Below, one piece after another: positions 1,684 through 58,325 of a stretch of DNA of 64,000 nucleotides. Under the pieces are notes generated by a model, which searched no databases, was not told the DNA's origin, and saw nothing but the letters and a program-made list of their open reading frames with translations. This stretch comes from Roseibium porphyridii. GTDB taxonomy: Bacteria > Pseudomonadota > Alphaproteobacteria > Rhizobiales > Stappiaceae. Each line of letters opens with the position of its first letter. Position 1 is the stretch's first letter. Both the position numbers and the translations under genes were made by a program. Location: positions 4,072,001 to 4,136,000 of the forward strand of contig NZ_CP120863.1 in assembly GCF_026191725.2 (NCBI RefSeq). The letters run 5' to 3'.

Positions 1684-1728
1684 GACAACAGATCAGGGAC
1701 ATATTTTGAGGCATCGCGGGACAACACG

Positions 1729-2511
1729 GTGACACGGCACCCAACAGATCATCCGCAGTTTTATCTTACAGCACCTGCGCCCTGTCCCTACCTTGAGGGA
1801 AAACAAGAGCGCAAGGTCTTCACCCACCTTGTTGGCCATGGCGCACCGGCTCTCAATGAAGTCCTGACCCAAGGCGGTTTTCGTCGCAGCCAGAATATTG
1901 CCTACAGACCTGCATGTGAGCGCTGTCAGGCCTGTGTCTCCGTGCGCGTCCGCGTTGACGACTTCAAATGGAGCCGCTCTTTCCGAAGGGTTTGGAAATC
2001 GGGTTCAGACCTGGTCGGAGCGCGGCTGCCGCCCAGCCCGTCAGCCGAGCAATACGATCTTTTCCGCGACTACCTGGAAGAACGCCACGAGAACGGCGGC
2101 ATGACCGAAATGAGCGTTCTCGACTACGCAATGATGGTGGAAGATACCCATGTCGACACGCTACTGATCGAGTATCGAAAGCGGGGACCGAATTCTTTCA
2201 TTACGGGCACTGGTGAAGGTCCGCTTCTGGGGGTTGCTCTCAGCGACCAGCTCTCCGACGGCCTGTCGATGGTCTATTCGTTCTATGACCCCGACCACGC
2301 CGACACAGCGCTCGGAACTTACATGATCCTCGACCATATTGAACGCGCACGAAAGCTGCACCTTCCCTATGTCTACCTCGGATACTGGGTCGAAGGATCT
2401 GAAAAGATGGCTTACAAGGCGCGTTTCAAGCCTCAGGAGCATTTGGGACCCAATGGCTGGGCGATTGCGGATGCAGAAGACTACAAAAAGGCCCCGCACA
2501 CTGCCGAATGA
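1729..2511 (+). CDS. bpt: Aspartate/glutamate leucyltransferase (bacterial N-end rule)
   Basis: 260 aa, the usual length for Bpt. It transfers Leu from Leu-tRNA to proteins with N-terminal Asp or Glu, marking them for ClpS/ClpAP degradation in the cytoplasm. The N-terminal ATE_N-like part has the paired cysteines expected of the family ([13 protein letters not shown], then CERCQAC around residues 64-67). The C-terminal GNAT-like part includes [12 protein letters not shown] and YLGYWV. The chosen start is [16 protein letters not shown] follows directly and agrees with family N-termini. No AUG candidate lies close upstream in frame. Confidence 0.93.
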
Positions 2512-2667
2512 GGTTCTGCCCTTTTTCCTCGCGGCGCACCTTGAGAGCGACACAGTCAAGACTTTGCCTGCTAGCGCCAGTCTGAACTGAGTTCCGGGAT
2601 ACACCGCCTGGCACTCTGCCTGGTCTCGCAGCTTTTGTGCTCACTCAAGAACAAAGGCTCAATTGGA

Positions 2668-3327
2668 TCAGGGGATCTTATTTCGGATCTTGTCAAAGAC
2701 AGAACGGAACATGTCTTCCGTCAGCCGGCCCGTATTCGTGTTGTATCGCGAGCAATGATAGCTGTCGAAGAGCGTCGTGCCATGGTCTGGCAAGTTATGC
2801 TCCGCGCAGTGCGCAAAGGGAAAGGCGGACCGTTTCAGCTCAAGCGCCGTCAGAAAGGTCTCATGGGCAATCCGGCCCAGTGCAAGAACAGCACGAATGG
2901 AAGGATTGGCGGCCAATGTCGACAACAGATAGGGACGGCACGTTTTGATTTCCGCGCCTGTCGGCTTGTTCTGCGGCGGCAGGCACCGCACCGCATTGGT
3001 GATCATGGCGTCCCTCAGCTGCAGACCATCATCAGGCCGCGCCAGATAAGTGCCTTCGGCAAAGCCATAATCAAGCATGGTCTTATAGAGAAGATCACCG
3101 GCGTAATCGCCCGTGAAAGGCCGTCCTGTGCAGTTGGCGCCTTTCATGCCGGGCGCCAGGCCGATGACCAACAGGCGGGGCTTTTCAGATGTAAACGAAA
3201 TGACAGGCGCGTTGTGCCAGTCGGGGTGCGTGGCTTTTAGCTCCTCACGAAGTTCAACCAGACGCGGACAAGCCGGACAATCCAGAGGAGGATCGACCGG
3301 CCCGTGAGTTTTGTTCTGCAAATTCAT
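2668..3327 (-). CDS. Uracil-DNA glycosylase, family 5-like (UDGb)
   Basis: 219 aa cytoplasmic DNA repair enzyme that removes uracil or related deaminated bases. Motif A reads GLAPGMKGAN, followed by the GRPFTGD element, and NAVRCLPPQNKP comes later, which fits the family 4/5 group better than classical Ung. Cysteines near the N-terminus (CPACPRL) and at NAVRC could bind an Fe-S cluster, as in related families. The ATG at 3327 is preferred because a longer frame would overlap the acidic tail of the upstream NYN gene. It lies 19 bp downstream of that gene, so the two are probably cotranscribed. Confidence 0.88.
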   Translation of the reverse strand: MNLQNKTHGPVDPPLDCPACPRLVELREELKATHPDWHNAPVISFTSEKPRLLVIGLAPGMKGANCTGRPFTGDYAGDLLYKTMLDYGFAEGTYLARPDDGLQLRDAMITNAVRCLPPQNKPTGAEIKTCRPYLLSTLAANPSIRAVLALGRIAHETFLTALELKRSAFPFAHCAEHNLPDHGTTLFDSYHCSRYNTNTGRLTEDMFRSVFDKIRNKIP

Positions 3328-25494: not shown

Positions 25495-28400
25495 TCACCT
25501 GGTTGGTCCCAGAACGGTGAAGCGGCCTGTCGCAGTGACCGCACGACGATCCGGCCGGTACATATCCTCCACAGACGCCGGCGGGTGAGCAAACTCACCC
25601 GGCGTTGCAGCACGCGCCAGATAGGCAAAACTCATTTCCTGACCATTTTGCCGTGTCTGGTCGATCGCAACTTCGAACCTGTCACTATAAAATGCGCTGT
25701 GTTCCGGCCGATCAATCATCGAAAGGAAGGACAAACCACCTAGATCGCCTGAACGCACGAGCCGAGGATTGTCGATAGCCAGTCCCGCTGGCAATCGGTC
25801 AACCACCATCAGACGGCCCGGCTGATCGGTCAGTGCACGAACGGTGACGACAACGGCAAGACGTGTGTTTACGGGTACCGCTGAAGGGTCGATCTCATTT
25901 CCATTGAGATCATAGATCTTCCGCTCGACCGCATAGTCTGTGCCCCCAGCGGGTTCCGGCGTCAGCGGCTGTCCCGCAACAGAAACAAGCAGATCAGTTT
26001 CGTCGGCACCGTTGTTTGTAACATTGACGGGAGCGCTGGAGATTGCCTCACCCGCAAACGACCATGCCAATCGACCGGGCGTCTCATCTCCGTCTACGGA
26101 GATCCGGGCTTCTTCAGCCGACTGGTTCAATGCCTGTGCGGCCAGCAACAGCCAGGCCATATCCTGGGTTGAACGTCCACCCGTTCGTGCCTGCGCAGAT
26201 TTCAGCGCAGCCAGTGCATCTTCCTTCAGTTTTTCTCCCATCGACGCCGAGACCACGTAGTCGGTGACACCTGCGCTGTCGCGCAGGATAGACCCGTAGT
26301 CAGACCGGTAAGTCTGTTTCTTCTCGCGGGGAAGTGCCGAGATCGCAGCGACAAATCCCGTCGCTGCCCGTTCCTGCTCACCATAGAGAGCAAGGCTAGC
26401 TGCCACCTGAGCCTTGGCCAGCGGCGTAGCAAAGCTTTGCAGCTTGGCATCAAGGTAATAACGCAGATCGCCCATGGAGGCGCGTCCGTTTCGCGCCAGA
26501 ACATAGAGCGAATACGCGATGCCCTCACCGCCATCCTGGAAATCGGATGCGTAAGCCAGCTGGTTCTCCAGATTGTCCAGCGCGGTGGTAAAGGCAAGAT
26601 CCGGGACCCGGTAGCCTTTCTCTTTTGCGCGGGTCAGGAAATCGGTGACGTAGGCATCCAGCCAGGTGTCGCCGTCGCCATAGCTGTTCCAAAGCCCGAA
26701 ATCACCGGATGCCGACTGATTGGCCAACACGGCAGCAATCGCCTTCACGACACGTTCCCGGATAGCACTGTCACCACCAAGGCCGGCCGCTTCCGCCACT
26801 TCACTCAAATAAAGCAATGGCAAAGCACGACTGGTGGTCTGCTCCGTGCAGCCATAAGGATACCTGTCCAGCGCTGCCAGCAATCCCGCGATATCGATGC
26901 TTGCTGCGCCGCCGGCGCTCAGCGTGACATCGACCGTGTCGGCGCGCAAACCGTCGAATGTATCCGGGCTGAGTGTCAGACTGCCGCCAGAGGCCAGCTG
27001 AAACGACGATCTGCGAACCACCTCTGGCTGAGTGTCCTTCACGTCCAGACCGAAGCGTTTGACATAAACCTTGCCGTCGGGACCTGTAAGTGAGGCAACG
27101 ACTTCAGACGTGATGGGTGACGCTCCGGCAGACACAGGCAGAAGCGACAAGGTTTTCTTGCCGGTTTCCAGATCGAAGGTCCGGGTCTGGCGGTCAGTGC
27201 CGCCTTCGAGTGCCAATCCCTCGGCAACAGATACTTCCAATTCATAAGAGCCCGACGCGCCATCGACATTGTCTATCTCAAGAGCAAGGCGCGACTGATC
27301 GCCCGGGGCAAGAAACGCTGGTGCGCTCGCAGTCATCACGACCGGCGAGCGAACCTCAACTTCCTGCTCTGCGTGGCCAACGCCGTCCTTGCTCCAGGCA
27401 ACCGCCATCAGCTTCAGGGCGCCGTTGAATGCAGGTACGTCGAATGAAACTGTGGCTTCACCATCCGCACCAATTTCAACAAGACCGGAGAACAACGCGA
27501 CCGGTTCGTCATCGGGCGGCGGGGCATCCAGACGCAAGGCCATGGCATCGCCGCCAGACCTCACGCGGCCAAGCGTGCCTGCGGTGCGGTCAATGAGCTG
27601 ACCATAAAGATCTCTGATATCCGTACCTAGACGTCGTTGGCCGAAGTACCAATTCTCCGGATCCGGTGTTTCGAAAGCAGTCAGGTTCAAGATACCGACA
27701 TCAACCGCTGCAACAGTGACATATGCTTGCGTTCCCGACTGAAGGTTAGCCAGCTTGATCGGCACATCCAATGTCGTTTCCGGCAAAATCCTATCAGGCG
27801 CTGAAAGTTCGACTTCAATTGCGCGTGCACCTGGATCGACTTTCAGCCAGGACAGACCCATAGAACGCGAGGGCATCCTGTTCTGGTCGAGATCCATGGG
27901 CCTATAGAGGCTTGCTGTGACATAGGCACCTGCACCCCAGTCATCGCTGACTTGGATCTCGACTTCCGTTTCAGTCGCGTCGACTTCAACCGAACGGCTG
28001 GAAACGAGCCCACCGGAAACAACATTGATGACAGCAATCCCGGATGTTTGCGGTTTCAGTCTGAGCTTTGCGGTGTCGCCGGGCCTGTAGGAACTCTTGT
28101 CAAGGCCGACGTCCAGGTAGTCCGGCGTTTCCGACGTCGCGTCTGCAGTGTACCAACCAGCATCGAACGTGACAGCGGTGGAAGTCTGCAAATCACCACC
28201 GCCCTGAATGTCGAGGCGGTATTCACCCCATTCAACCGGGAGTGACAATCGCGCCGGCTGTCCTGCAAGGACGTCCAGATAGCCGCTTGATACTCTACGC
28301 GTCGTGGTGATCGGCTCGTAGTTCCAGCGGCCGTCGACGCGGTACCATTGGTATCTGCGATCAACTTTCGAAAGCGTCCAGGTGAGACCCTCTGCACTTT

Positions 28401-31032
28401 GCTCTGTGCCATCGCCGCTGACTACGATGACCGTGAAATCGGCAGGCCCGCCTTCATCTACACCGCCATCGAAGGCCGGTTTGATTCCAATCCGAGGCCC
28501 ATCGAGCGCGACAGAAAGTTCAAGATCTCGCTCCACATAGCGGCCTCCGGCCTCGACCAGCCTGGCAACCAATTGGCCGTTATAAAGCTGCGTCGTGTCC
28601 GCCAACTCCGGAAGTATCACATCAAAAGACAGTTTTCCGTCAGCGTCGGTCTTGAGGCCGGATGGAAGGCTGCGGCGCTGCGTATAAACTTCGCTATCCT
28701 CCAGACCAAATTGGTACTCGGGAAAGGCCTTGAGCGATCGCGTCGGTTTAACAATGATATCGCCTTCCAAGGCTTGGCCGCTTGCCGGTGAGCCGTAAAG
28801 GAATTTGGCATCAAGCGAAACCTCTGTCGGTTCAGTGCGGTTGAAGGCCGTTGCCGATGTCTCAAGGTCGAAGTCCACCCGTTCGGGCTGGTAGTCCTCG
28901 ACGAGGAAGGTTTCCTGGCTCAGTGCGCTTGCCTTGGGATCGGAAAAAACCTCCCAAGACCAAATGCCCTGCTGGGCCGAGGCACTCAAGGTCAGGTCCT
29001 GAAGATGTCCGCCCAATCCACCGTCATTGACGGTAAAACGAGCGTGCTCAACACCATCTGGACGACTGAAGACAAAGGTAAGAGGAAAGTCTTCTTGGGC
29101 GACGGCTTTGGCATTGCGCAAGAGCGCCTGCGCATGAACGGTTTCACCGGCCTTGTAGATACCGCGATCTGTCCAGGCGAATACATCCAACGGCCCTGGC
29201 GCGGGCCTGCCTTCGACACCACGGTCGGACAGATCGAAAGCCGGTTTGCGCAAATCAAGGAAAGAATAGTCCCCGTCATCCGTCTCCGCGACCAGAACAC
29301 CTGGTGCAAGGCCACCACGTCCGCGGGTCATTCCTGCTTCAAACTCGGCAAATCCGTCTGCGTTGGTGACCTCCTCACCCAGGATTTCGTTGTTGACGGC
29401 AAGCAGACGAACCTTGACGCCTTCAAGTGCGGCAGCCGTGGTCAATGAACGGATGTTGGCGGCCACTCCGGTGTCGCCACTCAAAGCCGTCACTCCGAGA
29501 TCGGAAACCAGAAACCATTGTGTTGCCAGAGCGCTCCAACGGTTCTGGAGATCCAGTTTCGAGCGGGCCGTCATCGCGTAGACACCCGGCTCCAACTCAA
29601 TTCCCGTTTCCGAGAGCGGAATGGCAGTCGTGATATCCACATTCAATTCGTTTTCAGTCTCGACAGTTCCGGTCCAGACCTTTTCGCCCAATTCATCTTC
29701 AATCTGCTCAGCTTGGTAGGAATCCAGCTGACGCAAAAACTTGTTGTCTCTCAGAATATCCGCGATCGCCCTGTTGCCGACCCGGTAGACAGATGCCTCA
29801 ACCTCGGTGGTGTTGACCGAAATGATCGGGATCGTCGGGTTGCCTCCAGCAGGCAGAACGTAGGAACGGCTGAGGAAATTCACCGAAGGAGACCGGTCTT
29901 TCACATAAACGGAAAGATCAGCTGATCTTTCCAGTTTTTCGCCATCGGCGGCGGGCAGCCCGCTGCGAGCCGTAATTTTGTATCTGGCTCCGTGTTTCAG
30001 GCCGTCAGCACAGATCTGATTGTCGTTCGCCTCAATGGAAGCAGTCCCTTCACCGATCACGCTGACATACGGGCTCATGTCTTCACCCAGGGCCAGCTTT
30101 TGCGAAAAGACCAGGCATATCCTTGGTGTCACACTATCGGAATCAACCACATGATCGACAATCCGGAAGCCATGTTTGGCAATCAGGTCGTCGTAACGAC
30201 GGCGCAGATTGGCGTTTTCCTCGAGTGCCAAAGACGCACGAAGGGCTTTGATTGCAGTCTTGAATTCATTGCGGCGCTCAAATGCCCTGCTCAGGATGTC
30301 GAGCGAGAACGCCCTTTCATTAGAGCTGACTGAACGCAGATACGCATTGATCGCTGCCGAGATCGCATTCTTTTGCTTGGTCTCTTTTGTCTGCCAATCG
30401 TCCGGATTCTGCAGCAGAAGTGCCGTTGTCAGGCTGGTCCAGCCTTCGTAGTCACCCGGTTCCAGCAACAATAGTTGCAGAAAGTCGCTCTCCGCCAGCG
30501 CACCGTTCCGGTTGTTCAGCGCTGCAAGTCCGTTGCGTCGGTTCACGTCCGCGCTTTGGCCATTGCCGCGAACCGAGTTTTCAATTTGAAGCGAATAGGT
30601 TTTTGCGCTCTCAAGCTGAGCTTCCGGCACGAAATTCAGTTCCGCCCGCCGATCGGCACTCATGTCGGCTCGTGGTGCCTGTACTGCCACCACGCGCCCT
30701 GCGATGGCACCTGAGAAACTCTGGAGTTCTCCGAAATCAGTCTTCAGGAAACACCAGCCGGCAGACGTGTTGAACGTAAAAGCCCGGCACTGATTGTCCT
30801 TCAGGCACGCCGATTTGCAGCCTTCCAGGTCAACATCCTTGACCGTTCGGTAATCGCTGCCGAAGAAGTCAGCATCGTCGATTGTGACGATACGCCTGTC
30901 CTGGGCACTTGCTGCATTTGGGTGCAATCCGCCAAAGAGCAACGTCGCTGCCAAAACGGCAGTGCAGATGCGGGCAGTATCTTTGTTTGAATTCAGAAGT
31001 TTATGTTTAAAAACAAGCGAAAAAATAGACAT
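25495..31032 (-). CDS. Bacterial alpha-2-macroglobulin with N-terminal PAN/Apple-like domain
   Basis: 1845 aa periplasmic protease-trap protein. The start at 31032 follows GGAGGA by 6 bp and gives a signal peptide ending ASAQD. There is no lipobox cysteine, so unlike E. coli YfhM it is probably soluble and not a lipoprotein. A PAN/Apple-like module (CKSACLKDNQC, then CFLKTDFG) at about residues 65-110 precedes MG-type domains. The thioester box is YGCTEQ near residue 1394, matching the reactive Cys-Gln bond that links to attacking proteases. Coupling to pbpC suggests defence of the murein layer when the outer membrane is breached. Confidence 0.93.
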   Translation of the reverse strand: MSIFSLVFKHKLLNSNKDTARICTAVLAATLLFGGLHPNAASAQDRRIVTIDDADFFGSDYRTVKDVDLEGCKSACLKDNQCRAFTFNTSAGWCFLKTDFGELQSFSGAIAGRVVAVQAPRADMSADRRAELNFVPEAQLESAKTYSLQIENSVRGNGQSADVNRRNGLAALNNRNGALAESDFLQLLLLEPGDYEGWTSLTTALLLQNPDDWQTKETKQKNAISAAINAYLRSVSSNERAFSLDILSRAFERRNEFKTAIKALRASLALEENANLRRRYDDLIAKHGFRIVDHVVDSDSVTPRICLVFSQKLALGEDMSPYVSVIGEGTASIEANDNQICADGLKHGARYKITARSGLPAADGEKLERSADLSVYVKDRSPSVNFLSRSYVLPAGGNPTIPIISVNTTEVEASVYRVGNRAIADILRDNKFLRQLDSYQAEQIEDELGEKVWTGTVETENELNVDITTAIPLSETGIELEPGVYAMTARSKLDLQNRWSALATQWFLVSDLGVTALSGDTGVAANIRSLTTAAALEGVKVRLLAVNNEILGEEVTNADGFAEFEAGMTRGRGGLAPGVLVAETDDGDYSFLDLRKPAFDLSDRGVEGRPAPGPLDVFAWTDRGIYKAGETVHAQALLRNAKAVAQEDFPLTFVFSRPDGVEHARFTVNDGGLGGHLQDLTLSASAQQGIWSWEVFSDPKASALSQETFLVEDYQPERVDFDLETSATAFNRTEPTEVSLDAKFLYGSPASGQALEGDIIVKPTRSLKAFPEYQFGLEDSEVYTQRRSLPSGLKTDADGKLSFDVILPELADTTQLYNGQLVARLVEAGGRYVERDLELSVALDGPRIGIKPAFDGGVDEGGPADFTVIVVSGDGTEQSAEGLTWTLSKVDRRYQWYRVDGRWNYEPITTTRRVSSGYLDVLAGQPARLSLPVEWGEYRLDIQGGGDLQTSTAVTFDAGWYTADATSETPDYLDVGLDKSSYRPGDTAKLRLKPQTSGIAVINVVSGGLVSSRSVEVDATETEVEIQVSDDWGAGAYVTASLYRPMDLDQNRMPSRSMGLSWLKVDPGARAIEVELSAPDRILPETTLDVPIKLANLQSGTQAYVTVAAVDVGILNLTAFETPDPENWYFGQRRLGTDIRDLYGQLIDRTAGTLGRVRSGGDAMALRLDAPPPDDEPVALFSGLVEIGADGEATVSFDVPAFNGALKLMAVAWSKDGVGHAEQEVEVRSPVVMTASAPAFLAPGDQSRLALEIDNVDGASGSYELEVSVAEGLALEGGTDRQTRTFDLETGKKTLSLLPVSAGASPITSEVVASLTGPDGKVYVKRFGLDVKDTQPEVVRRSSFQLASGGSLTLSPDTFDGLRADTVDVTLSAGGAASIDIAGLLAALDRYPYGCTEQTTSRALPLLYLSEVAEAAGLGGDSAIRERVVKAIAAVLANQSASGDFGLWNSYGDGDTWLDAYVTDFLTRAKEKGYRVPDLAFTTALDNLENQLAYASDFQDGGEGIAYSLYVLARNGRASMGDLRYYLDAKLQSFATPLAKAQVAASLALYGEQERAATGFVAAISALPREKKQTYRSDYGSILRDSAGVTDYVVSASMGEKLKEDALAALKSAQARTGGRSTQDMAWLLLAAQALNQSAEEARISVDGDETPGRLAWSFAGEAISSAPVNVTNNGADETDLLVSVAGQPLTPEPAGGTDYAVERKIYDLNGNEIDPSAVPVNTRLAVVVTVRALTDQPGRLMVVDRLPAGLAIDNPRLVRSGDLGGLSFLSMIDRPEHSAFYSDRFEVAIDQTRQNGQEMSFAYLARAATPGEFAHPPASVEDMYRPDRRAVTATGRFTVLGPTR

Positions 31033-31130
31033 GGCCAATCCTCCGGGGCCTATAATTTCCTCTATCAAGGCACCGGAACGTGACAAGGACAAGGCATATT
31101 TTCGAAGAGTGATGACTGATGAGGCCCGCG

Positions 31131-48488: not shown

Positions 48489-48520
48489 AAAAATGCCGGC
48501 GTGACAGCGTCACGCCGGCA
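48489..48520 (-). terminator. Intrinsic terminator of the Gfo/Idh/MocA gene
   Basis: A perfect 12-bp stem TGCCGGCGTGAC / GTCACGCCGGCA (48494-48520) with a 3-nt loop is followed on the minus strand by TTTTTA. It lies 27 bp past the minus-strand stop and may also slow transcription from the converging plus strand. Confidence 0.85.
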
Positions 48521-48546: not shown

Positions 48547-49671
48547 TCAACAGGCGACCGAGGAAAGCTTGTTGCTCATGAGAAGGACAGCCTGGCCGGT
48601 GCGCGCTGACTGTTGGGCCGCAAGACCCATCTCAACAGCGCGGCGACCGTCTTCCAACGTTACTTCAGGAGCCTGTTTTTCACCCCTTACTACGGCAACG
48701 AACCCTTCGTGCTGATAGAAGGTTGAGCCGTTGTGATCTCCAGCGTCGAGAATTGTCGGATCCACTGGAATGTCTATCTGGCGCGGTCCTTTGGGCTGCC
48801 GCGGAGACACAACCAATTGAGGCACTGGCGGATCGCCAAGATCCGATGGCCAGAAACGCCCTGGACCTGGAACGAATGCTTCGATCTTTCCTTCAGATCC
48901 GATTGCAACCACTTCTTCCTGGTACCGCGAACCTTCTGCAAACATGCAAAGTTCGAGCATGGCACGTGAGCCATTTTCGAAATCAACAATCACATAGCCG
49001 TTGTCCAGGATGTCAGGCTGTTCGCCGTCATAAGTCTCGTCCTTGTGATTGGCGTCCTGGCCAGCTGAGGCCATCACACGAACAGGTTCGCTTTTCATGA
49101 TCAGGCGCATCAGATCGAAAAAGTGGCAACATTTTTCAACGAAGGTGCCCCCGGAATACTTGTTGAACCTGTTCCAGGCACCAACCTTGTCGAGAAACGG
49201 AAACCGATGTTCGCGAATGGTCAACATCTTGATCCCACCGGTCGCTTCCTCAGCCTGTTCAATCAGCGCTGCAATCGGCGGCATGTAGCGGTATTCCATG
49301 GCGACCCAAACAGGCGCGGGATAGGCCGACTTGAAGGTCTCCAATTCCGCCAGATCTTTCGGGTCGGTGAAAAGCGGCTTTTCGACGAGCAATGGTAGCG
49401 GCCGCTTCTTGCGAATCTCCTCCATCTGAGGCACGTGGCAGTGGTTGGGGCTCGCGATCAGGATGCAATCAAGCTCTTCCACTTCCAAAAGCTCGGCAAC
49501 GGATCCGACAAACTTTGCACCAGGTGCAAACGCTGCGGCCTCGCGGGCCATATCAGCATCCGGCTCAAACACCACGGTCACTTCCGTGTCGGCAAGCAGG
49601 GCGATATTGCGCAAATGCTCCTGGCCCATCATTCCGCAGCCAATAACCCCGTATCTTACCTTTGCAGGCAT
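48547..49671 (-). CDS. Gfo/Idh/MocA-family protein; candidate NAD-dependent sulfoquinovosidase (GH188-like)
   Basis: 374 aa. The N-terminal Rossmann fold has GVIGCGMMG (near residue 8) and the EKPLF box. The C-terminal domain has GGTFVEKCCHFFDLMRL near residue 190. It binds NAD(P) and acts on a sugar or sugar derivative; related enzymes include GH109- and GH188-type NAD-dependent glycosidases as well as simple dehydrogenases. It shares a 37-bp gap with the GntR gene and faces the monooxygenase operon. That context suggests it releases sulfoquinovose from its glycosides with an NAD-based mechanism, replacing the GH31 enzyme that is not seen here. This function is inferred. Confidence 0.75.
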   Translation of the reverse strand: MPAKVRYGVIGCGMMGQEHLRNIALLADTEVTVVFEPDADMAREAAAFAPGAKFVGSVAELLEVEELDCILIASPNHCHVPQMEEIRKKRPLPLLVEKPLFTDPKDLAELETFKSAYPAPVWVAMEYRYMPPIAALIEQAEEATGGIKMLTIREHRFPFLDKVGAWNRFNKYSGGTFVEKCCHFFDLMRLIMKSEPVRVMASAGQDANHKDETYDGEQPDILDNGYVIVDFENGSRAMLELCMFAEGSRYQEEVVAIGSEGKIEAFVPGPGRFWPSDLGDPPVPQLVVSPRQPKGPRQIDIPVDPTILDAGDHNGSTFYQHEGFVAVVRGEKQAPEVTLEDGRRAVEMGLAAQQSARTGQAVLLMSNKLSSVAC

Positions 49672-49708
49672 TTCCTTCTCCTAATTCCGGCGGTTTCTTG
49701 CCGTCCGC

Positions 49709-50419
49709 CTATTTCAACCGTTGCACGTAATGCGCCTTGTCCGTATCAAACCAAGTTCGTGAATACTCGACCGGCCTGGCTCTATCGGACCAGCTGAAAC
49801 GCTCAATATATCCAGTGAGTGTTCCAGGTGTTTTTGAAAAAACGTCCGGAGCCCACTCCGGTACCTTTCCGATCGTCACCCTGTCTTCGGCGCGAACAAT
49901 CCAAAATCCAAGATGCTTCTGGTAGAAGCGATAGAGAGAGTCTGAAAGCAGATCCTGTCGCACCGTGCCACAGTCACCATCAAGCCAGATTTCCTCCACA
50001 GCAATCATGACCTCATTCAGGTAGCGGAGCCTACGAATGCGCGTGCCTTCACGGCTTGTGCCAAAGGTTGGTAGCTCATCCGGCTTGTGCAGGCGGTCGA
50101 CCGTGAGGATGTCGGCGCGCGGCAAACCGCCTCCGGACAAAAGCTCCAGGCGGAACATCGCATAGACGCTTTCCTGTGTGCCTCCTTGACGTACGTAATT
50201 CCCCGAGCCCTGAATTCGCTCAAGTAAGCCTTTATCCGTAAGGTCCGCCAACGCTTTTCGCAAGGTGCCGATGGATATCCCAAGCTCTTCCGCCATGTCT
50301 CGCTCTGGTGGCAACCGCTCTCCATCGATCAGCCGCCCAGCAGCGATATCCCTAATCAAAAGCTCGCTGATCTGCACATAAAGCGGCAGCGCTCCGGACG
50401 TTTGCGAGTCAGTTGGCAT
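49709..50419 (-). CDS. GntR-family regulator with UTRA ligand domain
   Basis: 236 aa. The winged helix (residues 8-75, LPPERDMAEELGISIGTLRKALADL) is joined to a UTRA-type ligand domain (about 95-230), which in the HutC subfamily binds small sugars or amino-acid derivatives. It is the gene nearest to the divergent flavin-monooxygenase operon (178 bp away), so it is the likely local repressor and is probably relieved by the pathway substrate. A small dyad in the gap is listed separately. Confidence 0.9.
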   Translation of the reverse strand: MPTDSQTSGALPLYVQISELLIRDIAAGRLIDGERLPPERDMAEELGISIGTLRKALADLTDKGLLERIQGSGNYVRQGGTQESVYAMFRLELLSGGGLPRADILTVDRLHKPDELPTFGTSREGTRIRRLRYLNEVMIAVEEIWLDGDCGTVRQDLLSDSLYRFYQKHLGFWIVRAEDRVTIGKVPEWAPDVFSKTPGTLTGYIERFSWSDRARPVEYSRTWFDTDKAHYVQRLK

Positions 50420-50457
50420 GACGTTTTTGTTGCCTGATTTTCAAAATTGATACACTA

Positions 50458-50471
50458 TTGATTTACATCAA
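50458..50471. promoter_or_regulatory. Possible GntR operator dyad
   Basis: TTGAT and ATCAA form a perfect 5-bp inverted repeat around TTAC, inside an AT-rich stretch just upstream of the GntR start. TTGATAC at 50447 repeats part of it. Position fits an autorepressor site; the motif is short. Confidence 0.35.
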
Positions 50472-50597
50472 ACCGAGTGATATGCAAGAAGAAATCGAAG
50501 GCAAAATGAAGCCATTCGAAAACAAACGAAAACACCCCGGTAGCCGCTCGAAGGCAAGATCCGAGGGTTGAAATGGTCAGTCCCAGGGAGGCACTTT

Positions 50598-51752
50598 ATG
50601 ACCGTAGTCCCAGTCACTTCGCCGGACCTTGATGCAGCGGAAGTTTCCTGGTTTGCCGCACTTTGCTCCGACGACTATCAGTTCCTGGGAGTGCCGGAGG
50701 GCGATCTGCGTTCTTCGTGGGAGCATTGCTCCTCAATTGTGAAGACAGCGGAAGCACAGGGCTTTCGAAACATTCTGTGCCCGTCCTCTTATCAGGTGGG
50801 TCAGGACACGTTGAGTTTCGTTGCCGGCTGCGCACCGATCACCGAGAAAATCAATCTTCTGGCCGCAGTGCGCTGTGGCGAGATGCAGCCGATCATGCTG
50901 GCGCGGACAATCGCGACGCTCGATCACATGCTCGAAGGCCGTCTTACAGTGAATATCATTTCGTCCGACTTTCCGGGCGAACAGGCAGACAGCGGCTACC
51001 GGTATCAGCGCTCACGAGAAGTTGTTGAAATCCTGAAACAGGCCTGGACACAGGACGAAATCAACTACGAAGGCGAGATCTACAACTTCAAGAACCTGAC
51101 AACGGATCCGGTCCGGCCTTACCAGACCGGCGGCCCCCTGCTCTATTTCGGTGGCTACTCGCCTGCAGCACTCGAGCTTTGCGGACAACATTGCGACGTC
51201 TATCTGATGTGGCCTGAAACTATGGGTGAGCTGGAAGGCCGTATGAAAGCGGTCAATTCTGTTGCGGAGAATTACAACCGCACTCTCGATTACGGCCTGC
51301 GGGTACATATGATCGTGCGGGATACGGAAAAAGAAGCACAGGAATATGCCGACTACATCGTCTCGAAACTCGACGATGCACAAGGCACAGCAATCCGCGA
51401 ACGCGCTCTCGACGCAAAGTCACTGGGTGTCAGCCACCAGGCAAAGAACCGTGAAGTCGCTGACGAGTTCGGATACATCGAACCAAACCTTTGGACCGGG
51501 GTTGGACGTGCCCGCTCGGGCTGCGGCGCTGCGCTTGTTGGTTCCACAGATCAGGTCATGACGAAAATCGAGGGTTACCAGAAGATGGGCATTCGGGCCT
51601 TCATCTTCTCAGGCTACCCGCACCTTGAAGAAGCAAAACACTTCGGCGCCCGCGTATTGCCGAATTTGAAAACATGCTCGCTGCCCCATGCCTATGGCCG
51701 CGTACCTGCTGAAACACCGGCAACACCACTCGGCAACGGAGTCCGCCGCTGA
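50598..51752 (+). CDS. SsuD-like FMN-dependent sulfonate monooxygenase; candidate SmoC
   Basis: 384 aa luciferase-like (LLM) flavin monooxygenase of the alkanesulfonate monooxygenase group, with reduced FMN supplied by a partner reductase. Recognisable stretches are WFAALCSDDYQFLGVP near residue 15, GRLTVNIISSDFPGEQ near 118 and PLLYFGGYSPAALELC. The ATG at 50598 follows GGGAGGC; a GTG at 50568 is rejected. The stop overlaps the start of the aldo/keto reductase gene (TGATG). Together with the reductase partners the set matches SmoC/SmoB/SmoA of sulfoquinovose desulfonation, which opens the C-S bond to give 6-oxo-glucose and sulfite. Confidence 0.82.
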   Translation: MTVVPVTSPDLDAAEVSWFAALCSDDYQFLGVPEGDLRSSWEHCSSIVKTAEAQGFRNILCPSSYQVGQDTLSFVAGCAPITEKINLLAAVRCGEMQPIMLARTIATLDHMLEGRLTVNIISSDFPGEQADSGYRYQRSREVVEILKQAWTQDEINYEGEIYNFKNLTTDPVRPYQTGGPLLYFGGYSPAALELCGQHCDVYLMWPETMGELEGRMKAVNSVAENYNRTLDYGLRVHMIVRDTEKEAQEYADYIVSKLDDAQGTAIRERALDAKSLGVSHQAKNREVADEFGYIEPNLWTGVGRARSGCGAALVGSTDQVMTKIEGYQKMGIRAFIFSGYPHLEEAKHFGARVLPNLKTCSLPHAYGRVPAETPATPLGNGVRR

Positions 51753-52642
51753 TGAACCGCGTCAAACTTACAGAAACCCTGGAATTTTCCCAACTGATCT
51801 ACGGCATGTGGCGGCTGGGTGACGACACAGATACGTCTCCTGCTCATGTTGAGCGGAAGATCCAGATTTGCCTTGATCAAGGCATCACGACGTTCGATCA
51901 GGCAGACATTTACGGCGGCTACGCTGCCGAAGCGGTGCTCGGCGGTGCATTGAAAGCAAACCCGTCGCTGCGTCAGCGAATGGAAATCGTCACCAAATGT
52001 GACATCGTCGCACCCGCAGGACGATATGCCGATGCCAAAGTGAAATACTACGACACCAGCCGTTCCCACATCGAGAAATCCGTCGACATTTCGCTCTCCG
52101 AAATGGGCATCGAGACGATAGATCTACTTTTGATCCACCGCCCCGACCCGCTCATGGATCACCATGAGACCGGCGCAACGCTCGACGATCTGATCAAAAG
52201 CGGCAAAGTGAAGAATGCGGGTGTTTCCAACTTCCGTCCCTGGGATTGGGAGCTGCTGCAATCGGCTATGTCAAACAAGCTGGTGACCAATCAGATCGAG
52301 ATCAGTCTGAAAGAAATTTCGCCTTTCACCAACGGTGACCTGGCCTTCCATCAGCGGCTCGGCACGAAGCTCATGGCCTGGTCTCCCCTCGGCGGAGGCG
52401 CCCTGATTTCCGAAGGTGGCCAGCTTGGTGCAGTGTTGGACGAAATTGCAGGGGCCCATGGCGTTGATCGCTCTGCGGTGGCGGTCGCATTTCTCTTGGC
52501 CCATCCCGCAGGTTTGCTGCCGGTTATGGGCACGAACAATACCGATCGGATCGCAAAGATTTCCGATGCCCTGAAAGTCTCGATAGATCGTGAAACCTGG
52601 TATCGGCTCTATGAAGCCGCCCTTGGCAACGAGGTGCCTTGA
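51752..52642 (+). CDS. Aldo/keto reductase (YdhF-type); candidate SmoB
   Basis: 296 aa TIM-barrel oxidoreductase. The catalytic tetrad is visible: Asp and Tyr in TTFDQADIYGGY, Lys in IVTKCDIV, His in LLLIHRPDP. YGMWRLGDDTDTSPAHVERK at the N-terminus is typical of the YdhF branch, to which SmoB also belongs in my recollection. In the sulfo-SMO route SmoB reduces 6-oxo-glucose to glucose with NAD(P)H. Overlaps with both neighbours (TGATG at each end) show tight coupling. Confidence 0.85.
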   Translation: MNRVKLTETLEFSQLIYGMWRLGDDTDTSPAHVERKIQICLDQGITTFDQADIYGGYAAEAVLGGALKANPSLRQRMEIVTKCDIVAPAGRYADAKVKYYDTSRSHIEKSVDISLSEMGIETIDLLLIHRPDPLMDHHETGATLDDLIKSGKVKNAGVSNFRPWDWELLQSAMSNKLVTNQIEISLKEISPFTNGDLAFHQRLGTKLMAWSPLGGGALISEGGQLGAVLDEIAGAHGVDRSAVAVAFLLAHPAGLLPVMGTNNTDRIAKISDALKVSIDRETWYRLYEAALGNEVP

Positions 52643-53157
52643 TGACCATGCAAAATGCCAATCATCCCGTAACCTTCGAGCCGGACTCAGACAACACACG
52701 GCTGTTGCGCGACGCTTTTGGGCGATTTGCCACCGGGGTTACCGTCGTGACCACGCATTCGGCTGATGGTCCTGTCGGCATTACCGCCAACAGCTTTTCT
52801 TCCGTGTCTCTGGAACCGCCGCTTGTGCTCTGGATGCCGGACAAGGGATCGCGGCGTTTTCAGTATTTCGAAGAGGCCGAACACTACGCCATTCACGTCC
52901 TCAGCCATCATCAGGCGGAGGTCTGCAATGGTTTCGTGCGCAATGCGCACGCTTTCGATCAGCTGCGACACAGAATAGATGAAAAAGGCATACCGCTGAT
53001 CGAGAATTGCCTTGCGCGTTTCGAGTGCAAGCGTTTTGCTGCCTATGAGGGAGGCGATCACCTGATTGTTCTGGGTCAGGTATTGCAGGCGGAAATGCGC
53101 ACCGGTGACGCCTTGACATTTTTCTCGGGCAAGCTCGGGCAAATCGCTCCACGGTAA
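52642..53157 (+). CDS. NAD(P)H:flavin reductase; candidate SmoA
   Basis: 171 aa from the ATG that overlaps the upstream stop by one base. It has the flavin-reductase-like split barrel: FATGVTVVTTHSADGPVGITANSFSSVS at residues 27-55, the region that holds FMN. It supplies reduced FMN to the two-component monooxygenase encoded two genes upstream. Adjacent LLM and reductase genes are the standard arrangement for such pairs. Confidence 0.9.
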   Translation: MTMQNANHPVTFEPDSDNTRLLRDAFGRFATGVTVVTTHSADGPVGITANSFSSVSLEPPLVLWMPDKGSRRFQYFEEAEHYAIHVLSHHQAEVCNGFVRNAHAFDQLRHRIDEKGIPLIENCLARFECKRFAAYEGGDHLIVLGQVLQAEMRTGDALTFFSGKLGQIAPR

Positions 53158-53215
53158 GGGCGGACTGCGGGGCGATGCTGAGTCCCGCCAGGAGGAAAAA
53201 CTTGGGAGGGCCCTC

Positions 53216-53806
53216 ATGGGCATTTTGCTGGCGGTGTTAGCACCGTTCGCTTTCGTCAATACGCATTTGTTGCGCATTGGCCGAGCTATAGGCGTCGTCG
53301 CTGTCGCCCTGATGGTTGTTGCGATCCTGATTCAGGTCGTATTCCGCTATGTTTTCAACAACGCTCTTCCATGGCCCGATGAGGCCGCTCGTTTCTGCAT
53401 GCTCTGGATGGCGGGGCTCATGGCACCGACGGCCTTTCGTCGCGGCGGCTTTGTCGCCATTGACATGCTGGGCCAGGCCTTGCCTGCGATGGCGGGAAAG
53501 GTGCTGACGCTAGTCCTGCTGCTCATCTCGCTGGCCGTTCTGGTCGTTTCCGTACAAATCGGATATTTTGAGGTGACCGGATTTGGCGGAAAATTCGCGA
53601 CCGCTTCTCTTTACGTGCCGGGCAATTTCACACTGACAGAATGGATCAGGGTTCCTCGCAGCTGGATGATGCTGTCGATGTTCGTGGGCGTGATCCTGCT
53701 AACGCTGGTCAATATCGAACTGATCCTGAGAAACCTTATCTCTCTTTTTGGCGGCGATGACCGGATGCCGGTCATGCCCGATGCAGACATGGCGGGGGCT
53801 GACTGA
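53216..53806 (+). CDS. TRAP transporter small membrane subunit (DctQ-type)
   Basis: 196 aa, four membrane segments. The family's LPWPDEAARFCMLWMAGLMAPTAFRRGG is at residues 44-70. GGAGGG precedes the ATG. It overlaps the large subunit gene by one base. The C-terminus is cytoplasmic and acidic. Confidence 0.92.
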   Translation: MGILLAVLAPFAFVNTHLLRIGRAIGVVAVALMVVAILIQVVFRYVFNNALPWPDEAARFCMLWMAGLMAPTAFRRGGFVAIDMLGQALPAMAGKVLTLVLLLISLAVLVVSVQIGYFEVTGFGGKFATASLYVPGNFTLTEWIRVPRSWMMLSMFVGVILLTLVNIELILRNLISLFGGDDRMPVMPDADMAGAD

Positions 53807-55299
53807 TGCTTATCTGGTTCCTGCCCGTCTTTCTTGTCTTCCTGATGATCGGTCTGCCGGTATTCTTCGGCCTCCTGGCAGCGCCGGGTATCCTGCTTTG
53901 GCTGAATGGCCAAGAACGGGATATCACCCTTCTCTACCGTAACGTTTACAACGGTATGGACAGTTTTCCTCTGATGGCGATTCCGTTCTTCATGCTTGCG
54001 GGCGAGCTGATGAACAAGGGCGGCATCACCATGCGCCTCGTGGAATTTTCACAGGCGCTGATGGGCCACCTGAGGGGCGGCCTTGCTCATGTGAACATTC
54101 TGTCTTCGATGCTGTTCGCAGGGCTTTCCGGTTCTGCAGTCGCTGATACGTCAGCTCTCGGGTCAATGCTGATCCCCGCGATGGAGAAGCAGGGCTACAC
54201 CCGAAAATTTGCCGCTGCCGTTACAGCTGCCTCGTCCGTCATCGGTCCGATCATTCCGCCATCCGGCATCATGATCATTTATGCCTATGTCATGGGTGAA
54301 AGCGTCGCCGCGCTGTTTCTGGCCGGCATTGTGCCCGGTGTCATGGTCGGCATCGGCCTGATGCTGATGGTGCGTTTCATGGCGGACAAATACGATCTTC
54401 CGAAAGCGCAACGGATCGTCAATCCAGGCCAGTCCATGGCACCGGTTGAAAAATGGTTCTCGTTTGTCGTTCTGCGCATCAACGTTGCCGGTCTTGCAAC
54501 CGTCGCAGCGACAGGCATAGCTTCCGCGCTCGGATTTGAATCCTTCTCCTACACCGTCACACTCCTTCTCTTTGTCGTGATGATGGTGCTGTCGCATTTC
54601 CTGCTTGTCAGCCTGCGCGGCGCGGTTTCAAGTGATTTCCGGGTGGTCTGCAAGAAAGCGGTCGCTCCTTTGCAAACACCGATCATCATCTTGGGCGGTA
54701 TTTTGTTGGGCGTTTTCACGCCGACCGAAGCAGCCGCGGTCGCCGTCGCCTATGCGCTTCTGATCGGTTTTTTCGTTCTTCATTCCTTGAAGATGAAAGA
54801 GATCCCGGGCGTTTTGAACAGGGCCGGAATTACGTCTGCCGTCGTGCTTTTGCTGGTTGGCGCTGCAATGGCCTTCAAGACGGTCGTTAGTCTGAGCCAT
54901 GCTCCGGAAACAATGGCTGCTTTCGTTCTCAGCCTCACCGAGAACCCGCTGATCCTGCTTTTCCTGATCAACCTTCTGCTTTTCGTCGTAGGCATGTTTC
55001 TGGATGCAGGTCCAGCCATCATCATTCTCGGCCCGATCCTCGGCCCCATCTTCACATCCATGGGTGTCGACCCGATCCATTTCGCCATCATCATGAGCGT
55101 CAACCTGACCATCGGTCTGGCCACGCCGCCGATGGGGCTCGTTCTGTTTGTCGCGGCATCGGTCTCACGAGAACGGGTTGAGACCATCGCCAAAGCAATT
55201 CTGCCGTTCCTGGCGGTAGAGATCGCGGTGATCTTCTTGATCACTTATATCCCGGCACTTTCCATGACGATTCCGCGTCTGACCGGATTTGCCAACTGA
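53806..55299 (+). CDS. TRAP transporter large membrane subunit (DctM-type)
   Basis: 497 aa, about 12 membrane segments, the full length for DctM. Landmarks are ALFAGLSGSAVADTSALGSM (about 105-125) and IGPIIPPSGIMIIYAYV. It couples Na+ entry to uptake of an organic acid. The substrate is set by the binding protein of the next gene. TRAP systems for sulfonates (for example taurine) are known, so a sugar sulfonate is possible. Confidence 0.95.
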   Translation: MLIWFLPVFLVFLMIGLPVFFGLLAAPGILLWLNGQERDITLLYRNVYNGMDSFPLMAIPFFMLAGELMNKGGITMRLVEFSQALMGHLRGGLAHVNILSSMLFAGLSGSAVADTSALGSMLIPAMEKQGYTRKFAAAVTAASSVIGPIIPPSGIMIIYAYVMGESVAALFLAGIVPGVMVGIGLMLMVRFMADKYDLPKAQRIVNPGQSMAPVEKWFSFVVLRINVAGLATVAATGIASALGFESFSYTVTLLLFVVMMVLSHFLLVSLRGAVSSDFRVVCKKAVAPLQTPIIILGGILLGVFTPTEAAAVAVAYALLIGFFVLHSLKMKEIPGVLNRAGITSAVVLLLVGAAMAFKTVVSLSHAPETMAAFVLSLTENPLILLFLINLLLFVVGMFLDAGPAIIILGPILGPIFTSMGVDPIHFAIIMSVNLTIGLATPPMGLVLFVAASVSRERVETIAKAILPFLAVEIAVIFLITYIPALSMTIPRLTGFAN

Positions 55300-55326
55300 T
55301 TATGAGCTATTAAAGGGAGGTACCTA

Positions 55327-56385
55327 ATGCTCAAATCTGCACTGAAAACGCTCACCGTTGCGGCGATGCTCGCCGGATCGGCCTTGAGTGCCGTTGCCGC
55401 GGATTACACGTTGCGCGCAACCGCAAACTCCAACGAAAACGACGAAGACTATGACGGTCTGGTCGTGTTCAAGAACTTCGTGGAATCCGCCTCGAACGGC
55501 GCCATTGAGGTGGAACTCTTCATCGGCACGCAGTTGTGCTCAAACGGTGCCGAGTGTCTTCAGGGTGTTGCTGGCGGCGCGATCGACATCTACATTTCGA
55601 CTTCCGGCGGTGCATCGGGCATCTTCCCGTATGTGCAGGTTCTCGACCTGCCTTACATGATGGCTGACGACCGGATTGCCGAGCATGTCCTGTCCGGCGA
55701 CTTTGTCCGCACGATGCGCGCCATGGCACTGGAAGACAGCCAGAACGCCATTCGCCTCATGACTGTCGGCAACACCGGCGGCTGGCGTAACTTTGCCAAC
55801 ACAAAGCGTCGTGTTGCAAATCCGGCCGATATGGAAGGCCTGAAAATCCGGACCGTGGTCGCCGACCTTCCGCAGGAACTGGTCAAGGCACTTGGTGCTT
55901 CGCCAACCCCGATTCCGTGGCCGGAGCTGTTCACCTCCTTCCAGACCGGTGTTGTTGAAGGCTCCAAGAATGGCATCACTGACATCATGGGCATGAAGTT
56001 CCCGGATGCCGGCCTGCAGTATGTCACTTTGGACGGCCATGCCTACATGGGCGCACTTTGGTGGATGAGCAACGAGAAGTTCCTCTCCATGCCTGAAGAC
56101 ATGCGCCGCGTCGTCGTCGACGGCTTCTATGCCCTGCAGCAGGCGACTTTCGCGTCTCCGAAGCGCAAGTCCATTCAGGCCTATGAAGACTTCGTTGCCG
56201 GTGGTGGCGATCTTTACGTCCCGACCCCGGAAGAGAAAGCAGCCTTCAAAGAAGCTGCTGCTCCCGTTTATGACTGGTTCAAGGACAACGTGAACCGTGG
56301 CGGCGAAATCTTCGGCGCATTGGAAGAAGCTGTTGCTGCAGCTGAAACCGACATCAACGGTGCACGCGACGCTGACCTGAACTGA
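55327..56385 (+). CDS. TRAP transporter substrate-binding protein (DctP-type)
   Basis: 352 aa periplasmic protein with signal peptide MLKSALKTLTVAAMLAGSALSAVAA. Family features are GLKIRTVVADL near residue 175, whose arginine normally pairs with the ligand carboxylate, and WPELFTSFQTGVVEGSKNGI. It is followed by a strong terminator, marking the end of the operon that starts with the monooxygenase. If the sulfo-SMO reading holds, the arginine could bind a sulfonate. Confidence 0.93.
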   Translation: MLKSALKTLTVAAMLAGSALSAVAADYTLRATANSNENDEDYDGLVVFKNFVESASNGAIEVELFIGTQLCSNGAECLQGVAGGAIDIYISTSGGASGIFPYVQVLDLPYMMADDRIAEHVLSGDFVRTMRAMALEDSQNAIRLMTVGNTGGWRNFANTKRRVANPADMEGLKIRTVVADLPQELVKALGASPTPIPWPELFTSFQTGVVEGSKNGITDIMGMKFPDAGLQYVTLDGHAYMGALWWMSNEKFLSMPEDMRRVVVDGFYALQQATFASPKRKSIQAYEDFVAGGGDLYVPTPEEKAAFKEAAAPVYDWFKDNVNRGGEIFGALEEAVAAAETDINGARDADLN

Positions 56386-56401
56386 TCCTTCGGATCAAAA
56401 A

Positions 56402-56436
56402 AGGAGCCCGGTGATTTGCCGGGCTCCTGCATTTTT
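56402..56436 (+). terminator. Intrinsic terminator of the monooxygenase-TRAP operon
   Basis: AGGAGCCCGG (56402-56411) and CCGGGCTCCT (56419-56428) form a perfect 10-bp stem with a 7-nt loop, followed by GCATTTTT. Confidence 0.92.
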
Positions 56437-56522: not shown

Positions 56523-57005
56523 TCAGCGGAACGGATACATCCAAACCTTGTAGTCATCGACCAGGATATGCGCTTTCTCAATCTCATCCTTCGTCATTTT
56601 CTTGACCACTTCCTCAAGCGAGATCGCAGCGTCAGGATCGCCGCCGATCGCGGAAAGGGTGTACCACATATAAGCGCGCACAAGGTCGGGTGCCGGCATT
56701 CCACGACCGATTTCATAGTACCATCCGACGCCGGACTGAGCTCCCGGATGCCCCTTCATTGCGCTTCGGAGATACCATTCGAACGCCCTCTGATCGTCCC
56801 GTTCGACGCCAAGTCCCATCGCGTACATGATGCCGATAAGCTCTTCGGCATCCGCGTTGCCGGACCGCGCAGCCGGCCAGAGTTCCTTCATCGCCTCTTC
56901 ATAGCGATCGGCCTCCATCAGGTCGCGCGCCTCCTCGATTTCCGCGTGGACAGGCGCGTTCATCACAACAAGCGCCAACAAGGCGGCTTTCAGGGTTTTC
57001 GTCAT
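56523..57005 (-). CDS. Sel1-like repeat protein, secreted
   Basis: 160 aa. A signal peptide (MTKTLKAALLALVVMNAPVHA) is followed by two to three Sel1-type TPR-like units, with ELIGIMYAMGLGVERDDQRAFEWYLRSA and GVGWYYEIGRGMPAPDLVRAYMWYTLSA. These repeats bind proteins; here in the periplasm. It is divergent from the cytochrome gene, whose start lies only a few bases away. Confidence 0.88.
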   Translation of the reverse strand: MTKTLKAALLALVVMNAPVHAEIEEARDLMEADRYEEAMKELWPAARSGNADAEELIGIMYAMGLGVERDDQRAFEWYLRSAMKGHPGAQSGVGWYYEIGRGMPAPDLVRAYMWYTLSAIGGDPDAAISLEEVVKKMTKDEIEKAHILVDDYKVWMYPFR

Positions 57006-57011
57006 CAGTTC

Positions 57012-58325
57012 TTGTCGTTCCCCGTTGTTCTTCTCTTGTCAGCCCCGGCATATGCTGCGGAACTACCGCCACCGCTTACTGAAGACAACTTCATCGCCTT
57101 CGATCAAAAGCAGGCAGCGCTCGGTCAACTCCTGTTTTACGACAAGATCCTGTCGGGTAACAGGAATATTGCCTGCGCCACGTGCCATCATCCAACGCTT
57201 GGAACAGGCGACCGGTTGTCACTTGGCATCGGCGAAGGCGGTGCCGGGCTTGGCAAGGAACGTACGGCCGGTGAAGGCGGCAACCGAATTAAGAAACGGA
57301 TTCCGCGAAACGCGCCAGGCCTTTGGAATCTCGGTGCAAAAGACCTTCACACGCTCTTTCACGATGGACGTTTGTCGATCGCCGACACCTACGAAAACGG
57401 TTTCAATTCTCCAGCGGAAGAATGGCTTCCAGAAGGCCTTGAATCCCTGCTTGCTGCACAGGCGATCTTTCCGCTTGTCGCCCAGTTCGAGATGGCAGGA
57501 AATCCGAGAGAAAACGAAGTTGCCGGAGCAGTGCATGATCGCATCGACGCGTCCTGGCCGATCCTTGCCAAACGCGTGCGCGTTATACCCGAGTATGGAC
57601 GTCTATTTGTCGAAGCGTTTGACCACGTAGACACACCGGATGAAGTGACAATTGCCGAAGTTGCCAATGCGCTTGCTGCTTTCCAGGCCATTGAGTGGGA
57701 AAGCTACGACAGCCCTTTTGACAAATACCTGGCAGGTGACAAGACAGCCCTCTCACCCACTCAGAAACGTGGCCTTGAGCTTTTCTATGGGAAGGCGCAG
57801 TGCTCCAGCTGTCACTCTGGAAGTCTGCTCAGCGATCAAGAATTCCATGCCATTGGCCTGCCGCCATTCGGGCCAGGCAGAACCCGCCGCTTCGATCCCA
57901 TGGTACGCGATGTCGGACGTATGGGAGAAAGCGACCGGCTGGAAGATGCCTACAGCTTCCGCACCCCTATGCTGCGCAATGTGGAGCTGACCGGTCCTTA
58001 TGGCCACAATGGCGCTTATCCAACGCTGGAAGGCATTGTTCGTCATCACCTCGATCCCGATGGAAGCCTGGCTTCATGGCGTCCAGAAACTGCCTCACTT
58101 CCCAATGTTCCCTGGCTGGAGGCAATTGATTTTGTCGTCTGGAACGACAAACGGGAAATGGCGCGGCATGCCAGGTTTCGCGACATCGCCCCCATTGCTT
58201 TGAGCGACGATGAGATTTCCGATCTGGTTGGCTTCCTGAAAGCTCTGACAGGAACAGCCTCGGTTTCCAATCCTCCCTTCGGCATTCCCAAAAGTGTTCC
58301 CAGTGGCTTGCCGATAGACAGATAG
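57012..58325 (+). CDS. Di-heme cytochrome c peroxidase family protein (MauG/Ccp-like)
   Basis: 437 aa from a proposed TTG at 57012, which gives the short signal peptide MSFPVVLLLSAPAYAAE. The frame continues upstream for 500 bp, but there it only mirrors the Sel1 gene. Two c-type heme sites are CATCH (residues 55-59) and CSSCH (264-268), with the long gap typical of the CcpA/MauG group. It acts in the periplasm, reducing peroxide or oxidising a protein or small molecule. The start region overlaps the Sel1 start region, so the exact first codon is uncertain. Confidence 0.85.
   Translation: MSFPVVLLLSAPAYAAELPPPLTEDNFIAFDQKQAALGQLLFYDKILSGNRNIACATCHHPTLGTGDRLSLGIGEGGAGLGKERTAGEGGNRIKKRIPRNAPGLWNLGAKDLHTLFHDGRLSIADTYENGFNSPAEEWLPEGLESLLAAQAIFPLVAQFEMAGNPRENEVAGAVHDRIDASWPILAKRVRVIPEYGRLFVEAFDHVDTPDEVTIAEVANALAAFQAIEWESYDSPFDKYLAGDKTALSPTQKRGLELFYGKAQCSSCHSGSLLSDQEFHAIGLPPFGPGRTRRFDPMVRDVGRMGESDRLEDAYSFRTPMLRNVELTGPYGHNGAYPTLEGIVRHHLDPDGSLASWRPETASLPNVPWLEAIDFVVWNDKREMARHARFRDIAPIALSDDEISDLVGFLKALTGTASVSNPPFGIPKSVPSGLPIDR

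Follow-up and report, generated by a model that had tools for sequence, protein, structure and literature searches.

Plants and algae are rich in the sulfur sugar sulfoquinovose (SQ), and the bacteria that recycle it must import it first. In Agrobacterium, the sulfoquinovose monooxygenase (sulfo-SMO) genes are arranged with those of a GH31 enzyme and an ATP-binding cassette (ABC) importer. An estimated 10 billion tons of SQ are made and degraded every year (Kaur et al., 2023; PMC10755693), and the available text of two further articles treats the sulfo-SMO pathway as widespread (PMC13372026; reviewed in PMC12890257). Kaur et al. (2023) also describe, in the article text, GH188 sulfoquinovosidases (SqgA) in sulfo-SMO clusters and report that they are near-universal in Roseobacter clusters without GH31. 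Here we describe a cluster with the identical enzyme set in the genome of Roseibium porphyridii (5.94 Mb, three contigs). It lies in a window of 64,000 nucleotides (contig NZ_CP120863.1, positions 4,072,001 to 4,136,000), to which all coordinates below refer, and joins the enzymes to a tripartite ATP-independent periplasmic (TRAP) transporter and to the genes of a Sel1-repeat protein and a di-heme protein. Neither the importer type nor the Sel1/di-heme pair is discussed in the text of Kaur et al. (2023), figures and supplements aside. Homology, active-site residues, gene order and co-occurrence make it probable that this is an SQ catabolic cluster with an exchangeable TRAP, Sel1 and di-heme uptake module. 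Searches of the open-licence literature found nothing that combines sulfoquinovose, TRAP and GH188; for sulfoquinovose and TRAP transporter the sole match, going by the part of the article available, is about a taurine-respiring gut bacterium.

Homologs of the sulfo-SMO enzymes and of GH188 sulfoquinovosidases

The eight genes listed in the initial annotation are all present in the open reading frame (ORF) layout of the window, in the order described. The first plus-strand gene, smoC (50598..51752), codes for a putative FMNH2-dependent SQ monooxygenase that scores 695 bits against structure 7olf and 687 bits against 7oh2 (76.2% identity), with the next matches at 193 (7jv3) and 176 bits (1nqk/1m41). 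These margins led us to drop an SsuD- or 7jv3-type identity, and they place the protein with SmoC rather than in an alkanesulfonate or methanesulfonate clade. For smoC, the ATG (50598) that aligns to residue 1 of the solved proteins is the likely start codon; it displaces an upstream TTG (50568). The nearest SmoC relatives in our named collection are from Roseibium, with identities of up to 99%. The predicted aldo/keto reductase for 6-dehydroglucose, SmoB (51752..52642, plus strand), has 62.9% identity to 7bby (407 bits; next match, 201 bits). We take 7oh2 and 7olf to be SmoC and 7bby to be SmoB, from Agrobacterium and Rhizobium; the structure entries carry the names alkanesulfonate monooxygenase and methanesulfonate sulfonatase (7oh2, 7olf) and aryl-alcohol dehydrogenase (7bby). 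The candidate SmoA (52642..53157, plus strand) is assigned by its position in the operon; by sequence it is a PF01613 flavin reductase (best solved relative, 4xhy). One-base TGATG overlaps at both the smoC-smoB and smoB-smoA joints agree with the overlapping stop and start codons that had been claimed for this operon. The locus resembles the Agrobacterium system in its SmoC, SmoB and operon-encoded flavin reductase and differs from it in having GH188 for GH31 and a TRAP transporter for the ABC importer. Elsewhere in the genome, two PF00174 oxidoreductases (contig C1, 2244492 and 1975723) could oxidize the sulfite that the pathway is predicted to release.

Divergent from the smoC operon, on the minus strand, are sqgA (48547..49671) and a GntR-family regulatory gene (49709..50419), as the initial annotation had proposed. 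SqgA has the Gfo/Idh/MocA fold and scores 552 bits (66.5% identity) against 8zn9, a structure for which we found no paper in the open-licence literature, and 362 bits (48.5%) against ArSqgA (8qc3). The next match is at 54 bits, and an inositol-type dehydrogenase identity was dropped on this basis. Residues K98, Y127, E154, R156, L160, K162, E179, H183 and H313 match those of ArSqgA; among them are counterparts of all eight catalytic and sulfonate-binding residues (K107, Y136, R166, L170, K172, E189, H193 and H321) drawn from the SQ-binding and catalytic residues in the text of Kaur et al. (2023). Their Glu163, which is E164 in the present count, also has a conserved counterpart. The sulfonate site of GH188 is discussed, in the portion available, in PMC11465081 as well. 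Bit scores and residues together support the proposed identity of SqgA as an NAD-dependent sulfoquinovosidase. Furthermore, the lack of GH31 claimed for the window extends to the entire 5.94 Mb genome, in which the PF01055 profile found no match. The enzyme part of the initial annotation is therefore correct but not new, since GH188 in sulfo-SMO clusters is already reported in the text of Kaur et al. (2023).

A TRAP importer common to two SQ-type pathways

The complete TRAP transporter claimed downstream of smoA is recognizable in three plus-strand genes: dctQ (53216..53806; small permease, PF04290), dctM (53806..55299; large permease, TIGR00786 above cut-off and PF06808) and dctP (55327..56385; solute-binding protein, PF03480). 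Pfam and NCBIfam gave concordant protein classes across the cluster. The distribution of the importer was followed in a class sample of 385 genomes, with DctP orthologs at 79% identity or more (next relative, 52%), close SmoC orthologs at 74% or more (next, 53%) and SmoC absence judged at E 1e-60. Orthologs of DctP occur in 11 of these genomes and close SmoC orthologs in nine, eight of which share DctP. A named set comprised the 80 nearest SmoC loci, the top 80 among 574 that were confirmed, and had DctP in the fetched stretch of 60 loci.

Three DctP genomes (G022, G222 and G117) have no SmoC match at this threshold. They carry instead a GH188 protein (52-53%), an SQ-isomerase-like protein and a tagatose-bisphosphate-type aldolase, and at locus L095 also a PfkB kinase, an aldose epimerase and an aldehyde dehydrogenase. 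These SmoC-free clusters look like the sulfoglycolytic Embden-Meyerhof-Parnas (sulfo-EMP) route. The strongest sign that the importer transports SQ or its glycoside is its occurrence with two SQ-type routes that are unrelated to each other, and the neighborhood as a whole supports the TRAP assignment well, with SQ or sulfoquinovosyl-glycerol as the predicted DctP ligand. GH188 matches are more widespread, occurring in 29 of the 385 genomes. These include 10 of the 11 TRAP-module genomes (the other, G193, is 64% complete), so 19 genomes with GH188 do without the present TRAP system. At six named loci (L048, L053, L060, L065, L066 and L077), the SMO genes are followed by an ABC sugar cassette instead of the TRAP genes. 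A membrane protein of the YeiH type (PF03601), a possible sulfite or sulfate exporter, was matched in each of the six, as well as in some further loci.

Residues R154, R175, W198 and N215 of DctP are invariant across 18 orthologs, and 17 aligned orthologs are 79-91% identical. The same spacing is found in the isethionate TRAP protein IseP (R156, R177, W200 and N217), a match read from residue spacing. In the part of the IseP article available, two arginines and an asparagine hold the sulfonate (PMC11668362). Overall similarity is low, at about 97 bits between DctP and 8t9t, and the best solved relative (4p47) reaches 118 bits. A predicted DctP structure was poor (mean predicted local distance difference test score, pLDDT, of 51.7) and was set aside.

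More distant relatives of DctP also stand near sugar genes, at 51% identity in L099 (genome G335) and 41% in L101. In L099 (7103-14594), the neighbors include SQ-isomerase-like and GH31 genes, and the Sel1/di-heme pair is not in the stretch examined. The GH31 protein of L099 fits an alpha-xylosidase (511 bits) better than the PRK10426 alpha-glucosidase (226 bits), so L099 and L101 were not counted as SQ loci; L099 perhaps serves a different sugar pathway that has a related TRAP transporter.

A Sel1-repeat protein and a di-heme protein accompany the importer

The initial annotation had closed the cluster at 56436, behind a terminator. A terminator-like hairpin of 12 pairs is indeed found 3' of dctP (56402..56428, both strands), yet the conserved neighborhood continues beyond it to 58325 with a Sel1-repeat gene (56523..57005, minus strand; PF08238) and a di-heme gene (~57012..58325, plus strand; PF03150). 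Both products have a signal-peptide-like N-terminus and are apparently exported. The two genes are arranged head to head and nearly gapless (56526-57030), as they are in related loci, and the signal-peptide region of the di-heme protein runs into the antisense of the sel1 start, with an uncertain start codon. In a survey of 59 di-heme orthologs, of which 24 were dropped for lack of a detectable motif, 16 of the 35 scored had no ATG, GTG or TTG that would yield a signal peptide of 17-45 residues, a crude rule.

The association of this pair with the importer is the new and surprising part of the cluster. With orthologs defined at 67% identity or more for Sel1 (next by E-value 42%; short partial matches up to 47%) and 62% or more for the di-heme protein (next, 50%), both occur in exactly the 11 class genomes that have DctP, which span seven family labels, and adjoin dctP in each. 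Among the 80 named loci the two sets are identical, the genes occurring together in 49. At each of these 49 loci the di-heme gene shares the strand of dctP and sel1 is on the opposite one, with a median gap of 553 bases (range 496-3281) between the dctP and di-heme matches. Whole genomes were searched in addition for the 31 loci in which the pair or DctP was missing or the stretch ended early, and DctP was then counted at 67% identity or more, some matches being partial at contig ends. By this count, a di-heme ortholog is present in 56 of the 64 named genomes with DctP and in none of the 16 without it, namely the six with the ABC cassette and ten in which no importer of this kind was found. 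Of these 16, some of which are incomplete metagenome bins, seven have merely a di-heme paralog of 45-48% identity. At one locus (L056) the pair is still together but 9.8 kb away from dctP. It is thus the TRAP importer, and not the oxygenase, that the pair accompanies, which suggests a role on the uptake side.

The di-heme protein belongs to the cytochrome c peroxidase/MauG superfamily (PF03150, 120 bits; cut-off, 25.6), and its two CxxCH motifs (C55/C58/H59 and C264/C267/H268) are invariant in 18 sequences. Fold and sequence are nearest to bacterial cytochrome c peroxidases, though the fold ranking separates peroxidase and MauG types poorly. It differs from described members in that the best curated model (TIGR03981) scores 263 bits, below its cut-off of 340, and the model for MauG proper (TTQ_mauG) 133 bits against a cut-off of 443.85. 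Furthermore, the invariant His346 aligns with a tyrosine of the MauG-like protein 6e1c, and the partner gene here encodes a Sel1 protein. In MauG proper, a tyrosine ligates the six-coordinate heme. No report of a Sel1/di-heme pair with MauG or TRAP was found among the matches listed from the open-licence literature, judged by title and abstract start, and matches to sulfoquinovose with cytochrome c peroxidase dealt, on the same basis, with other matters. In 14 of the 23 loci inspected (L122-L128, L132-L134 and L154-L157), paralogous di-heme enzymes (42-50%) stand beside an UnbV/ASPIC FG-GAP protein, and three annotated cases are close to genes of the sugar kinase, epimerase or isomerase-like kind. 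These pairings suggest that heme enzymes encoded near sugar genes together with a dedicated partner form a broader class.

Proposed roles and alternative explanations

In the pathway that we propose, SQ or sulfoquinovosyl-glycerol would cross the inner membrane through DctPQM, with DctP probably gripping the sulfonate by two arginines and the asparagine. Cytoplasmic SqgA would cleave the glycoside through NAD-dependent redox chemistry, SmoA would provide reduced flavin to SmoC, SmoC would convert SQ to sulfite and 6-dehydroglucose, and SmoB would reduce the latter to glucose. The uptake module of TRAP, Sel1 and di-heme proteins could be combined with either sulfo-SMO or sulfo-EMP-type enzymes. 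As a route-independent marker, such an importer would sharpen genome-based predictions of SQ uptake.

Several points weigh against this proposal. It is built from sequence, with ligand, activity and growth all predicted. The named loci are close relatives, being the best 80 of 574. G349 has a close SmoC and lacks this DctP. In G310, as in G193, SmoC and DctP are on separate contigs, and the SmoC of G310 lies near another DctM-like gene that is 29% identical. The SQ-isomerase-like protein of L095 scores 246 bits against NF048012, whose cut-off is 700. The Arg-Arg-Asn set of DctP is not diagnostic, being equally common in TRAP proteins that bind carboxylates, and if the offset holds, two other contacts of IseP in the text available, Asn98 and Tyr153, would be replaced in DctP by Ala96 and Gly151. 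Finally, eight named genomes (L016, L020, L021, L024, L052, L068, L069 and L074) have DctP and no di-heme ortholog.

The general nature of these ligand-holding residues and the 118-bit score of the best solved relative would suit a TRAP system that imports a different, carboxylated substrate and merely neighbors the SQ genes. We consider this distinctly unlikely, because the importer is common to two unrelated SQ-type clusters, its place is taken by an ABC cassette after the SMO genes in the six loci without it, and its DctP orthologs are so conserved. In addition, the one clear relative of SQ-type ABC binding proteins in the genome (45%), rejected as a second SQ importer, sits among uronate-use-like genes (gene classes judged by eye). 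The Sel1 and di-heme genes might also be bystanders that travel with the TRAP genes. The hairpin and opposite orientation between sel1 and dctP fit this explanation, as do the eight genomes without the di-heme ortholog, and shared ancestry means that genome counts are not independent trials. Set against it are the exact match among the 385 genomes (11 of them, with seven family labels), the persistence of the pair through a change of catabolic pathway, the 68-90% identity of Sel1 in 17 diverse relatives and the arrangement at L095, where the di-heme ORF ends 33 bases ahead of the kinase gene of that cluster. We regard mere co-travel as unlikely.

As for what the pair does, reduced-flavin oxygenases leak peroxide, and the nearest relatives of the di-heme protein are cytochrome c peroxidases. 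An ordinary periplasmic peroxidase that clears H2O2 leaked by the flavin monooxygenase, with Sel1 as a helper, would account for both facts. This explanation is disfavored and seems improbable, since the pair also occurs in the three sulfo-EMP-type clusters without a SmoC match, whereas the SmoC genomes that lack DctP, the six with an ABC cassette among them, have no di-heme ortholog. The tracking of TRAP rather than the ABC cassette would be expected if the di-heme enzyme modified the sugar outside the cytoplasm, for example by oxidizing the glycoside to an acid for TRAP import, and acids are, in the literature excerpts available, the usual ligands of TRAP binding proteins. However, SQ already bears a sulfonate, a group that, according to the available text on IseP, TRAP proteins are able to bind (PMC11668362), making a prior oxidation of the sugar very unlikely. 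We know of no sugar-acting enzyme in the di-heme cytochrome c peroxidase/MauG family. A further, doubtful reading is a MauG-like role in which the di-heme enzyme oxidatively matures, or swaps electrons with, the small aromatic-rich Sel1 protein outside the cytoplasm; in many marine SQ degraders the pair would then be required for TRAP uptake whatever the catabolic route, and the paralogs beside UnbV/ASPIC proteins in other sugar loci might work alike. If true, this would be a new enzyme-plus-dedicated-partner system in sugar uptake. The pair, which accompanies the importer in two catabolic settings unrelated to each other, defines a precise and testable gap.

Regulation and other features of the locus

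The regulator encoded between sqgA and smoC has the UTRA (PF07702) and PF00392 domains of the GntR family. The gntR-smoC gap contains TTGATTTACATCAA (50458..50471), the sole exact TTGAT-N4-ATCAA palindrome of the window, where 0.07 are expected; one or more copies were present in 7 of 100 shuffles. Of 85 related gntR-smoC gaps, 64 contain the palindrome in its exact form, and 60 of the 62 exact copies in the 80 named loci are upstream of gntR. The GntR protein probably controls the divergent promoter by binding to this candidate operator, a sequence that also resembles an FNR box. No exact copy was found near sel1 or the di-heme gene.

A promoter scan of the region gave no match. Another terminator-like hairpin of 12 pairs, with a T run, lies 3' of sqgA (48494..48520, minus strand). 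Hairpins in general are not enriched in the region, with 13 found against 9.8 (standard deviation 3.1) in shuffles. Apart from the cluster, one ORF of the window (25495-31092, minus strand) is very long, at 1865 codons.

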